The notes under the pieces are model-generated. The model saw nothing but the letters and a program-made list of their open reading frames with translations. It searched no databases and was not told the origin of the DNA. From NCBI GenBank assembly GCA_944386605.1, contig CALXBS010000010.1, positions 1 to 43,531 of the forward strand: DNA of 43,531 nt, given 5' to 3'. Of this stretch, positions 4,719-13,639 are shown one piece after another. A program made the translations under genes and the position numbers. The stretch is from an uncultured Clostridia bacterium. Lineage in GTDB: Bacteria; Bacillota; Clostridia; TANB77; CAG-465. Each line of letters opens with the position of its first letter. Position 1 is the stretch's first letter.

Positions 4719-4745
4719 GCTCAAAATATAGAAGGAGTGTGTAAA

Positions 4746-6710
4746 ATGGAAGGGACACAAAAAAATAAAATGGCAGAAATACCAATAAAAAAGTTAGTAT
4801 TAAAAATGGGACTGCCAATGATTATCTCTATGGTTCTACAAGCTTTATATAATGTTGTTGATAGCGTATTTGTAGCAAATATGGGAGAAAAAGGAGCAAT
4901 TGCAAATCAAGCTCTAACACTTGCTTTTCCTATTCAAATTTTAATTATTGCAATAGGCGTTGGAACTGGAATAGGATTAAATGCCCTATTATCCAAAAGT
5001 TTAGGAGAAAAAAATCAAGAAAAAGTAAATAAAGTAGCAGGAAATGGAATATTTTTAAGTATTTGTATTTTTATAGTATTCTTTTTATTTGGGGCTTTTG
5101 GTTCAGAATGTTTTATATCCTTATTTGCAGGTGGAAATTCGGAAGTCATATCTATGGGAACGATATATTTAAAAATTTGTACTTGCTTGTCATTAGGATC
5201 TATTGGATATACAGTTTATGAAAGATTTTTACAAGCAACAGGAAAAACAATGTTGTCTACTATTGCACAAATATCAGGTGCAGTTGCAAATATTGTTTTA
5301 GATTATATATTTATATTTCCGCTAGGAATGGGAGTAGCTGGTGCAGCTTGGGCAACAGTTATAGGACAATTTATTTCGTTATTTGTAGCAATGTTTTTTC
5401 ACTATACTAAAAATAAAGAAATAAATGGTAATTTAAAATATATTAGACCAGAATTTAGTTTAATGAAAGCTATTTATAAAATAGGAATTTCAGCAGCAAT
5501 TATGCAAGCATTACTTTCTGTTATGATGGCTGGCATGAATGCAATACTTGGATTATCAAAAGCAGATCCCACAATTCTTGTCGGCTCATTTGGAATTTAT
5601 TATAAAATACAGCAAATAGCATTGTTTTCTGCTTTTGGATTATCTAATACTATCATATCTATATTATCATTTAATTATGGTATGAAAGATAAAGAAAGGA
5701 TAAATGATTGTATCAAATATGGAATTATAGATACTGTAATTGTTACATTTATATTAACAATTATATTTGAAATCTTTGCAAAACCATTATCAAGTCTGTT
5801 TGCTTTAGCTGGAGGTACAAGTAAAGAAATCATTGAAGTTTGTACTATTTCATTAAGAATAGCAAGTATTGGATATATTTTTATGGGATTTTCTGTTGCA
5901 GTACAAGGAGTATTACAATCACTTGGATATGCATTAAGACCTTTAATAATATCTTTATTAAGATTAGTTGTATTTGTATTTCCAATTGCTTTTTTCTTTA
6001 CAATGTCCGACAATGTAACCAATATAGTTTGGTGGACTTTCCCAATAGCTGAATTTTTAACTTGTATCATATCAATATTTATATTAAAAAAGACATATAA
6101 AGAAAAAGTAGCAATACTAGAAGAAACTGATAAAAAAGCAGTTATGAATAAAAAGCTAATCATATCTATTTCAAGACAACATGGAACAGGTGGAAAAGAA
6201 ATAGCTAGAAAAGTAGCAGAAAAATTAGGACTAAAATTTTATGATAAAGAAGAAATCAAGAAGTTTGCAATTAAAAACTCTTTGATTGAAGATACTTGTA
6301 GCGATGATGATTTATACAAATTCTATTTGTCATTAGATGCTGAAAAAGATTCTATTATAAAACAAGCTGAAACAATAAGAATGATTGCTTCACAAGAAGA
6401 TTGTGTGATTGTGGGAAGATGTGCAGATTATATCCTAAAAGATAATCCAAATTTAATCAAAATATTTTTATATGCACCAATGAAATATAGAATTGAAAAA
6501 GTAAAAGAGATGTATAAAGATACTTATAATGAAGCCAAAAAGCATATAAATCAATCTGATAAATCAAGAGCCTCTTATTATGAAATAATTGCAAATAAAA
6601 AGTGGGGAGATAAAGAAAATTATGATATATGTCTTGATTGTTCTATTGGAAATGATAAAATTGTAAATATTATTTGTGAGTATGTAAAAGAAATGAATAA
6701 GAAAAATTAA
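4746..6710 (+). CDS. MATE-family efflux transporter fused to a cytidylate-kinase-like domain
   Basis: A 654-aa two-part protein. Residues 1 to about 455 are a MATE multidrug/Na+ antiporter with about twelve helices; typical stretches are KLVLKMGLPMIISMVLQALY, VVDSVFVA, and GVAGAAWATVIGQ. From about residue 466 (MNKKLIISISRQHGTGGKEIA) comes a P-loop domain of the Cytidylate_kin2 type, with the SRQxGTGGxxIA nucleotide loop, LGLKFYDKE, CVIVGRCADYIL and a terminal CLDCS. The upstream in-frame GTG (4737) lies inside the GGAG site, so ATG 4746 is the start. Such fusions are known in gut Clostridia, but how the soluble kinase-like domain serves the transporter is not established. Expression is probably gated by the leader hairpin. 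Confidence 0.9.
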   Translation: MEGTQKNKMAEIPIKKLVLKMGLPMIISMVLQALYNVVDSVFVANMGEKGAIANQALTLAFPIQILIIAIGVGTGIGLNALLSKSLGEKNQEKVNKVAGNGIFLSICIFIVFFLFGAFGSECFISLFAGGNSEVISMGTIYLKICTCLSLGSIGYTVYERFLQATGKTMLSTIAQISGAVANIVLDYIFIFPLGMGVAGAAWATVIGQFISLFVAMFFHYTKNKEINGNLKYIRPEFSLMKAIYKIGISAAIMQALLSVMMAGMNAILGLSKADPTILVGSFGIYYKIQQIALFSAFGLSNTIISILSFNYGMKDKERINDCIKYGIIDTVIVTFILTIIFEIFAKPLSSLFALAGGTSKEIIEVCTISLRIASIGYIFMGFSVAVQGVLQSLGYALRPLIISLLRLVVFVFPIAFFFTMSDNVTNIVWWTFPIAEFLTCIISIFILKKTYKEKVAILEETDKKAVMNKKLIISISRQHGTGGKEIARKVAEKLGLKFYDKEEIKKFAIKNSLIEDTCSDDDLYKFYLSLDAEKDSIIKQAETIRMIASQEDCVIVGRCADYILKDNPNLIKIFLYAPMKYRIEKVKEMYKDTYNEAKKHINQSDKSRASYYEIIANKKWGDKENYDICLDCSIGNDKIVNIICEYVKEMNKKN

Positions 6711-10818: not shown

Positions 10819-11742
10819 ATGGAAAAAATAGGTAACATGGAAGAAAGGTTAAGACGGACTTTAGAAAACGTAAGTGAGGTTTGTATTATTGGTCACGATA
10901 ATATAGACGTAGATTCTATCTTATCAGGGATATTACTTTCAAAGCTACTAAAATTCTTAAACATAAATGCGAAGTTTATGATATTAGAACCTATTCAAAA
11001 GAATGATACATATGATATCGTTCATCATTTAACAGATATTAATTTGGATGAATATGTAGAAGAAAACGAAGATGAATTAAGAACACTTTTTTTAGTGGAT
11101 CATTATGAAACAAACCATAAAGGAAATGTAATTGGATGTATAGATCATCATCCAACTAAAAAAGAAAATTCATATGTGTTTTCATATGTAAGAAATTGTA
11201 CTGCAACTTCCTATTTGATTTATGAATTAATGAAACTGTCAAATTATCCTTTAACTACCGAAGAAGCAAAGCTGATTGTTCTTTCAATGATGGTTGATAC
11301 AGTAGCTTTTAGAAGTAGTAAAGCAATACCAGAGGAAGTAAAAGTTGCTAAATCTCTTGCACATGAATTTTCTCTTGATTATTCTTTATTAGAAAGTGAA
11401 AGTCTTTGCTTAACACCTATTGAGAAAATGAGTATGGATGAAATTACATCTAATGGAGAAAAGAAATACAATTATAATGGCCACAAAGTAAGATCAGCTT
11501 ACTTGCAACTTGATGGTATGCCAGAGGAAAGCATATTAAATAAGTGGCTAGATTATATAAAAAATAAAATGGCTCATGATACATTTAAGGCAGAACAAAT
11601 GGTATTTATTATTTTTGATGTAAAATCAAATGTGACTTATGAATATCAAATAACCTTAAATAGCACAAAAGTGATTGTCCATAATGGAATAATATCTAGA
11701 GGGAAAGATATCATGCCACAAATTGAGAAAAAATATGATTAA
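10819..11742 (+). CDS. DHH-family phosphoesterase, pyrophosphatase/NrnA-like
   Basis: A 307-aa soluble metallo-phosphoesterase. Manganese-binding motifs are in order: GHDNIDVDS (residues 25-33, with D27, D30/D32), LVDHYETNH (about 95), IDHHP (D109-H110-H111, the family signature) and MMVDTVAF (about 155). The C-terminal part with NGHKVRSAYLQLDGM resembles the DHHA2-type domain of family II inorganic pyrophosphatases more than the DHHA1 domain of NrnA. Likely substrates are pyrophosphate-like compounds or short (cyclic) nucleotides. The start is ATG 10819, behind GGAGAGGTGG; the ATG at 10814 runs into a stop. A strong terminator follows, and a degenerate relative is encoded next. Confidence 0.85.
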   Translation: MEKIGNMEERLRRTLENVSEVCIIGHDNIDVDSILSGILLSKLLKFLNINAKFMILEPIQKNDTYDIVHHLTDINLDEYVEENEDELRTLFLVDHYETNHKGNVIGCIDHHPTKKENSYVFSYVRNCTATSYLIYELMKLSNYPLTTEEAKLIVLSMMVDTVAFRSSKAIPEEVKVAKSLAHEFSLDYSLLESESLCLTPIEKMSMDEITSNGEKKYNYNGHKVRSAYLQLDGMPEESILNKWLDYIKNKMAHDTFKAEQMVFIIFDVKSNVTYEYQITLNSTKVIVHNGIISRGKDIMPQIEKKYD

Positions 11743-11845: not shown

Positions 11846-12334
11846 ATGAGATATGTGATATTAATGAATCAAAAGTTAAATGAAGATGATTTATGCGCAA
11901 GTTTTGCTTATGCAGAATTAATTGCTAGACTTGACTTTTCTGTTGCTGTTTATGCATCTAAAAAGAATGCTCAAAATTTGCGAAAAAGAGTACAGGAATT
12001 TATGCTAAATGTAGAGATTATAGAAGAAATAACAGATAGTGATAATATTATTTTGATAGATAGTCATGCTATTCAAAATATGGAAATTAATAAGAAATTA
12101 GTTACAGAAATAATTGTACATCAATTAATAAAACAAGAGGAGTATGAAAATGCAAACATTACTTTTGTGAAAGATAGATTATATTTAACTGAAATCCTAA
12201 ATCGTTATTTGCTTTATCAAGCTAGTTTATCTCAAGAGTTAATTAGTTATATTAGAAATAGAATAATTAGTGGTTGTCTTTTCGTAAGTGAAATAGATAG
12301 AAAAATATTAAAAGAATTTAATATACTAGACTAA
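11846..12334 (+). CDS. Degenerate DHH-like protein (probable pseudo-enzyme)
   Basis: A 162-aa protein that aligns by eye with the N-terminal half of the preceding DHH protein. 'NQKLNEDDLCASFAYAELIA' lies where the active relative has GHDNIDVDSILSG; IILIDSHAIQNM matches LFLVDHYETNH; and EIIVHQLIKQEEYENANITF matches CIDHHPTKKENSYVF. The DHH signature is replaced by V91-H92-Q93, and the first aspartate cluster is changed, so metal catalysis is unlikely. The DHHA-type C-terminal domain is absent. It has its own perfect promoter and a GGAGGG site, so it seems to be an expressed protein rather than a relic. A nucleotide-sensing or regulatory role is possible but unproven. Confidence 0.65.
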   Translation: MRYVILMNQKLNEDDLCASFAYAELIARLDFSVAVYASKKNAQNLRKRVQEFMLNVEIIEEITDSDNIILIDSHAIQNMEINKKLVTEIIVHQLIKQEEYENANITFVKDRLYLTEILNRYLLYQASLSQELISYIRNRIISGCLFVSEIDRKILKEFNILD

Positions 12335-12346
12335 AACTGGCATAAA

Positions 12347-12375
12347 TTGACATAAAAATAAAATGATGGTATAAT
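12347..12375 (+). promoter_or_regulatory. Consensus sigma-A promoter of the GC-rich gene
   Basis: TTGACA (12347-12352), 17-nt spacer, TATAAT (12370-12375), followed by an AT-rich leader and the full Shine-Dalgarno AAAGGAGG (12415-12422). Confidence 0.9.
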
Positions 12376-12428
12376 AATAATAGAGTATTTTGTATGCTCA
12401 AAAAATAATTTTTTAAAGGAGGCTTTTT

Positions 12429-13088
12429 ATGAACACAAGAGCAAAAGCAAAAGGACGGACAACAACTGAAAAGGCAGAGAATGGTTTCTTAAAGAACCTT
12501 TTTAAGGCCAACGAAGCAGAAGATGAAGAGATCACACCGTCTCCCAAAAAGGAGAAAGCACCAGCAAAAGAGGCGTCCCCTAGAAAGGTGAACGGTTATG
12601 CGTTCTATTTGAGCTCTGGCAGTAAGAGGATCTTCATTGATGAGGATTATCTTGAAGAGCTGTTGGAACTCTTTCCGGACGAGATCTATATGCAGCATGC
12701 CAAGAGCGAAGCTGTTCGCGTCAAGGCAGTCGGCAATGGAGAGATCCTTACCTTGTCAGGAAACTACATTTTGGGCAAGAAGAGTCCAGAATACTTTGAG
12801 TTTTTGCAGGAAGAGGTGCCACTGGATCTCTCAGTGACAACTTTCCTGACGGAAGCTTATGCGGTTGATCTGACGAAGATGGAAAGAAAAGATTTTGCCA
12901 GCCGTGAGTTGATCCGGATGGTAAAAAGTGAGCCGGGTAGACTTTCTATTGTTGGAAAGGAATTTCTGGCAGAGAAGGATGAGCCTGATGTGGTCATCGG
13001 GAACGTAACTAGCGCAAGCTTGTACGGTGAGGATTTCATCATCTTGAAAACCATCTCAGGGCTGGAATACGCCCTATTAGTATCGTAG
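12429..13088 (+). CDS. GC-rich orphan gene, 219-aa protein of unknown function
   Basis: I do not recognise this protein. Residues 1 to about 55 form a low-complexity, Lys/Ala/Glu/Pro-rich tail, probably disordered, with a short amphipathic patch GFLKNLFKANEAED. Residues about 56-219 look like a folded alpha/beta domain (VNGYAFYLSSGSKRIFIDED, EELLELFPDEIYM, LTLSGNYILGKKS, FIILKTISGLEYALL). There is no signal peptide or membrane helix. Base composition is about 50 % G+C by direct count of sample lines, against about 27 % on both sides, and codons such as CTG, GAG, CGC and GTC are frequent, unlike every neighbour. Yet promoter, Shine-Dalgarno (AAAGGAGG, 6 nt before ATG) and terminator are near ideal, so strong expression is expected. 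Recent acquisition or unusual selection on the coding sequence are both possible. Confidence 0.8.
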   Translation: MNTRAKAKGRTTTEKAENGFLKNLFKANEAEDEEITPSPKKEKAPAKEASPRKVNGYAFYLSSGSKRIFIDEDYLEELLELFPDEIYMQHAKSEAVRVKAVGNGEILTLSGNYILGKKSPEYFEFLQEEVPLDLSVTTFLTEAYAVDLTKMERKDFASRELIRMVKSEPGRLSIVGKEFLAEKDEPDVVIGNVTSASLYGEDFIILKTISGLEYALLVS

Positions 13089-13093
13089 CTCTT

Positions 13094-13129
13094 ATAGTGG
13101 GGAAGCAGACGTTGCTTCCCCACTATTTT
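13094..13129 (+). terminator. Strong terminator of the GC-rich gene
   Basis: A perfect 14-bp stem (13094-13107 with 13113-13126) with a GACGT loop, including GTGGGGAAGC, followed by TTTTCTT. One of the most stable hairpins of the window. Confidence 0.92.
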
Positions 13130-13174: not shown

Positions 13175-13639
13175 ATGAAAATAAATTATTCTGATGAAAA
13201 ATTAATGAAAGAAAAACCATCCATTTTTTTAGCTGGACCTATTCCACGTGATCAGGTAACTAAAAATTGGAAAGAAGAAGCTCTTGAAATATTAAATCAA
13301 TTACAATTTTCTGGTATAGTATATATTCCAGAGAAAAAAACAAAAGTAGTAATGGAAGGAAATAAGGATGAAATGAATTGGGAAAAAGAAGCAATGGAAA
13401 ATGCAGACATTCTTGTATTTTGGATCCCAAGAAGTTTCCCTGATATGTTAGGACTAACAACTAATATTGAATTTGGAATATGGTTAAAATCTGGAAAAAT
13501 CATTTATGGTAGACCAGATGATTCATTTAGAAATGAATATTTAGATGTAATATTTGAAGAAGAATATCATGAGAAACCATATCATAGTTTAGAAGAGTTA
13601 TTAAAAGAAACAGTTAGAAGATTAACAAAAGGAAAATAA
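13175..13639 (+). CDS. Nucleoside 2-deoxyribosyltransferase-like protein
   Basis: A 154-aa cytoplasmic protein of the nucleoside deoxyribosyltransferase-like fold. Visible are the N-terminal strand and loop PSIFLAGPIPRD, a helix with NWKEEALEIL, VYIPE, the central NWEKEAMENADILVFWIPR with the Glu that in the family attacks the sugar, and LTTNIEFGIWLKSGK followed by YGRPDD. Members cleave or exchange the glycosidic bond of nucleosides or modified nucleotides; the real substrate here is unknown. An in-frame extension back to 13097 crosses the terminator and promoter and is not used. The ribosome-binding site is weak (GGTGAT), consistent with the very short leader. Confidence 0.8.
   Translation: MKINYSDEKLMKEKPSIFLAGPIPRDQVTKNWKEEALEILNQLQFSGIVYIPEKKTKVVMEGNKDEMNWEKEAMENADILVFWIPRSFPDMLGLTTNIEFGIWLKSGKIIYGRPDDSFRNEYLDVIFEEEYHEKPYHSLEELLKETVRRLTKGK

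Follow-up and report, generated by a model that had tools for sequence, protein, structure and literature searches.

A GC-rich orphan gene in an AT-rich Clostridia genome and a class of putatively resident, compositionally deviant, mostly single-gene units

Our analysis shows that a GC-rich orphan gene, located in a 43,531-nt stretch of DNA (contig CALXBS010000010.1, positions 1 to 43,531, hereafter the window) from an uncultured Clostridia bacterium with an AT-rich genome (G000), belongs to a class of at least 25 short, fast-evolving and mostly single-gene units, unrelated to one another, which share a high GC3 and a codon dialect of their own. We propose that these class genes are residents of the genome; the sister species G002 retains relatives of most of those compared, at three loci in a syntenic position. 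As the composition of the class persists even though silent sites have been fully turned over between the two species, we infer that something maintains it, the simplest candidate being selection that acts on codon usage or on mRNA properties. We give an even chance to this reading, that is, to resident genes with a maintained composition rather than to the residue of one old transfer.

The window gene lies among chromosomal genes (encoding a DHH protein, ruvA, ftsE, rpoB and others) and, judging from its sequence signals, would form a complete unit of its own, a single gene flanked by its own promoter and its own terminator (Table 1). The initial annotation had singled it out as a compositional outlier in an AT-rich genome, and the measurements bear this out: its GC3 is 0.518 against 0.152 +/- 0.031 (maximum 0.231) in the 39 other genes of the window, corresponding to z = 11.9 for GC3 and z = 5.0 for GC. 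The coding part is indeed GC-rich, but the original figure of about 50% G+C was slightly high, the gene measuring 0.458 overall and 0.37-0.55 in 60-nt windows. Both the TTGACA-N17-TATAAT promoter and the Shine-Dalgarno sequence that had been described were found to be exact. The shift in GC content does start at the ATG, as claimed; it does not end at the stop codon but runs on through the terminator hairpin, which deviates as well, so that the anomaly is a coding-plus-terminator unit and not confined to the coding part. Most bacteria have AT-rich promoters and leaders, so that a promoter of this composition is a weak argument for a flank derived from the host.

Table 1. Coordinates of the features discussed in the window.
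Feature	Position	Strand	Remarks
Putative complete one-gene transcription unit (promoter, leader, ORF, terminator)	12347..13126		predicted from signals
Promoter	12347..12375	+	TTGACA (12347-12352), 17-nt spacer, TATAAT (12370-12375); exact in sequence
Shine-Dalgarno AAAGGAGG within AT-rich leader	12415..12422	+	exact in sequence; same in G002
GC-rich orphan CDS	12429..13088	+	219 aa, ATG at 12429
GC-rich terminator hairpin, then TTTT	13094..13126	+	14-bp stem, -24.4 kcal/mol, z -7.0
Downstream neighbour, nucleoside 2-deoxyribosyltransferase-like (PF15891)	13175..13639	+	marker of the syntenic site in G002
ORF reading as MATE-type transporter fused to a C-terminal cytidylate-kinase-like domain	4737..6710	+	657 aa; putative
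DHH protein	10819..11742		
Protein resembling a reduced DHH-type domain	11846..12334	+	162 aa; beside the DHH protein

The matches of these signals to consensus suggest strong expression of the window gene and of the class as a whole. The encoded protein has the basic, low-complexity N-terminus that had been noted initially (residues 1 to about 54), whereas residues from about 54 to 216 can be aligned with the G002 protein; this C-terminal part is small and probably folded, and two AlphaFold models (mean pLDDT 33-34) were too poor for use. As a guess at its function, an accessory protein of the conflict or nucleic-acid-binding type would be compatible with the basic tail, the rapid divergence and the strong signals. 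Two other products of the window drew our attention, the putative transporter fusion and the 162-aa protein, the latter having relatives with 24-35% identity in four genus members, in differing neighbourhoods.

The window protein had been presented as an orphan, and it matched no known family in Pfam, PHROGs, NCBIfam or PADLOC, no PDB sequence, and nothing in tblastn searches of phages and plasmids. Contig scans seeded with the window protein, alignment A1 or the G002 protein returned the G002 record as the sole match, and viral scans with three other class proteins, seeded with short peptides and insensitive, returned nothing. A profile search of 385 genomes of the order revealed convincing homologues in G000 and G002 only. 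When the single protein was searched against sets of 57, 385 and 391 genomes, just two borderline matches appeared (E about 1e-4), both rejected as spurious because they are located inside proteins that we take, from reading their sequences, to be Mfd and HsdR. Across the phage, plasmid, viral and genome searches, neither a donor nor a close homologue in another lineage was identified. A literature search retrieved no description of such a gene class, which is a weak negative.

The contrast between a foreign-looking gene and host-like flanks, initially regarded as an isolated case, recurs in at least 25 genes. These were found in a census of 883 kb (53% of the genome) based on a simple gene caller, from which G000:C3:1-20000 and G000:C3:40001-60000 (L053, L064) were left out, both consisting entirely of N; 25 genes, about 3%, reached a GC3 of 0.33 or more, the median being 0.167. 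Class genes are short, form mostly one-gene units, and carry a -10 box, a Shine-Dalgarno sequence and, often, a hairpin right after the stop codon. Relative to 793 ordinary genes, the 29 class genes compared, chosen without any Shine-Dalgarno filter, are enriched in AGGAGG (17/29 vs 184/793, p 7e-5), in perfect TATAAT (20/29 vs 237/793, p 4e-5) and in upstream gaps of at least 80 bp (24/29 vs 322/793, p 8e-6). The promoter pattern was rejected as an exclusive marker of the class, as it precedes AT-rich genes as well. Nearly all class members searched in Pfam are orphans, with only AAA_28 and a vWA domain above the cut-off, and hhalign detected no homology among members. Similar GC-rich genes occur in G014 and G002, while 20-kb samples of ten other genus members contained one such gene in total by a similar criterion. 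The distribution across the genus is patchy, which speaks against our reading.

The codon usage of the class is not merely that of the host scaled for GC. Genes with a GC3 of at least 0.40 use CAG (0.80), CCG (0.42), CGG (0.24) and CTG (0.20) and avoid ATA (0.04). The window gene is best described by the rest of the class (log-likelihood per codon -1.137), ahead of the GC-tilted host (-1.191) and its own genome (-1.566); the best genome of the panel, G056, a member of the same order with a GC3 of 0.39, reached -1.173, barely better than the GC-tilted host, and was discarded as a donor. The dialect is kept in relatives, in which CAG stands at 0.65 (G002) and 0.61 (G009/G011) compared with 0.19 in ordinary G002 genes. 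The genome contains genes for tRNA-Gln-CTG, tRNA-Lys-CTT and tRNA-Leu-CAA. That this second dialect marks a functional gene class, selected and maintained against the AT drift of the genome, is a tentative idea that we consider rather unlikely; little-used C34 tRNAs could, for example, translate dialect genes at times when tRNAs reading A-ending codons are in short supply or attacked.

Among genus members, G002 (Clostridia MAG record JAUNGP010000005.1) is closest to G000, with 92% identity in FtsH as opposed to 75-82% for the other members with a full match. It carries a 231-aa gene with a GC3 of 0.40 upstream of the same neighbours (the deoxyribosyltransferase-like gene, a small ORF, ruvA, ftsE and onward), the first of which, directly downstream, is 59% identical to its window counterpart. 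In G002 the gene is likewise preceded by TTGACATAAAA...TATAAT in the corresponding position and by AAAGGAGG, and a strong hairpin follows it. Its product shares the basic low-complexity N-terminus and is 24% identical to the window protein over 172 columns (E 7e-6, as a single comparison), a homologue that the genome-wide protein search had missed. The initial annotation had proposed a survey of relatives for the gene and its G+C, and had named a transient insertion as evidence against its proposal; as the corresponding locus of G002 carries a GC-rich relative, the window gene is not a transient insertion.

We compared 13 class genes in this way, 10 by a concatenated search together with the gene between ftsH and rpsB, a 509-aa gene and the window gene. 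Ten of the 13 have a G002 relative, with 22-71% identity, against 58-95% for most ordinary syntenic neighbours. The GC3 of eight of these relatives is 0.31-0.46, with flanks mostly at 0.11-0.26, and that of the other two is nearly at background (0.20, 0.23). Three loci are syntenic between G000 and G002, namely the window gene, the 106-aa gene between ftsH and rpsB, and the 509-aa gene with its small partner ORF, and at all three GC is high in both species. Downstream of ftsH, at least eight species have no gene at this site, rpsB following within about 235 bp, whereas G000 and G002 have the GC-rich gene there; G014 (GC3 0.40) and G016 (GC3 0.21) carry a probable diverged homologue there, matching each other with E 2e-4 and linked to the G000/G002 gene by position and alignment motifs, not by BLAST score. 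Low-GC3 copies of class genes were found in G016, G018 and G008, and these, like the two near-background relatives in G002, look like decay, which argues against a maintained composition.

The orphan 509-aa family (400-550 aa; L082 16929-18458, minus strand; loci L149-L163) occurs order-wide with its small partner ORF, adjoining in several families of the order a gene that is presumably purA-like. Its GC3 exceeds that of the flanks in most genomes of the order (0.61 vs 0.42 in one, 0.54 vs 0.16 in another), and a few copies are near the flank value. A GC-rich operon (L085 17405-19891, G000:C17) is found in four species of the genus only (also L165 in G002, L166 in G011 and L167 in G009); its products, as we read them, are a 337-aa nicotinamidase/isochorismatase-like protein, a vWA protein and a PP2C-like protein, and its first two genes have a GC3 of 0.21-0.47 against about 0.13-0.18 in the flanks. 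G047, which belongs to a different family of the order, has a pair of neighbouring, related small genes (L115 2385-2956) with 48-51% GC in a stretch of 31% GC, and the phenomenon may thus extend beyond the genus.

In ordinary genes with a protein identity below 85%, 54.8% of 4-fold sites differ between G000 and G002 compared with 60.3% expected when saturated, or 91% of saturation, and whether a site is GC or AT in G000 carries no information on its state in G002 (odds ratio 0.96). Class genes nevertheless have a GC4 of 0.43 in G000 and 0.23 in G002 against a background of 0.12, a sum that does not include the window pair; this pair shares only 15 4-fold sites, and the argument is made for the class. 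Per-site memory in class genes is little (odds ratio 1.52, z about 1.65, an estimate), and since the GC excess is kept all the same, composition is retained at the level of the gene and not of the site. Adenine-specific hypermutation was considered and rejected: loss of A dominates at 4-fold sites, yet T falls at third positions while G and C rise.

The main rival to maintenance is recurrent import, in which the genes would be cassettes of the moron type that come from a pool of mobile DNA of about 45% GC (unsampled phages or elements) and are exchanged time and again at the same sites, the composition being replenished and not selected. We regard this as possible, if doubtful. One-gene units with their own promoter and terminator, orphan proteins, a patchy distribution and a coherent dialect unlike the host's, matched best within the panel by a member of the same order, would all be expected from such a pool. 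The nicotinamidase-like/vWA two-gene unit, moreover, is 65% identical between G000 and G009 and 71% between G000 and G002, out of line with FtsH (79% vs 92%), which hints at exchange for that unit. Against recurrent import, phages, plasmids and viral contigs yielded no relative (the viral scans being insensitive), no class copy among the 27 other genus members is closer than 71%, and the same site would have to be hit in several species.

If each gene had been transferred once, from a donor richer in GC, and were still decaying towards host composition, this would account for the unhostlike composition and dialect and for the relatives near background GC3. Under an equal-input model (our own calculation), however, about 30% of an ancestral GC excess is expected to survive in each lineage, and the G000 class value of 0.43 would therefore need an ancestral GC4 above 1; the G002 values by themselves could be the legacy of an ancestral GC4 near 0.5. 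This saturation, and the high GC in both species at the three syntenic loci, contradict a single transfer for the class and make it improbable in our judgement, and individual members without a G002 relative could still fit. An assembly or binning artefact joining in stretches of another organism, conceivable in a fragmented assembly of 90 contigs, is hardly credible given the homologue at the same locus in the separate G002 assembly and class junctions that repeatedly coincide with gene borders.

Maintained residents, as we favour them, resemble several known systems in part. Like ameliorating transferred genes, class genes are compositional outliers with non-host codon usage; unlike them, they have a GC excess that has outlasted silent-site saturation. 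Recently transferred genes differ from the window gene in that its locus is not empty in the close relative, where a 24%-identical GC-rich gene stands. Composition outliers are routinely taken for recent transfers, and such calls are doubtful in Clostridia as AT-rich as these, where the sister-species relatives of outliers, three of them at syntenic sites, are mostly still outliers after silent sites have been rewritten. Phage morons are extra single genes with their own promoter and terminator and a deviating composition, and the window gene likewise is a one-gene, accessory, orphan unit of this kind. It sits, however, between ordinary chromosomal genes and not in a prophage, has no phage match, has a relative at the same site in the sister species, and does not show the compositional decay of a recent insert. 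The set of unrelated orphan families described here, about 3% of genes, is marked by a common dialect and strong expression signals and can be tested as a class. Bacterial ORFans are also short, fast-evolving and taxonomically restricted. In well-studied bacteria, however, ORFans tend to lie below the host in GC content, whereas the class genes are much more GC-rich than theirs and share both a dialect and strong expression signals.
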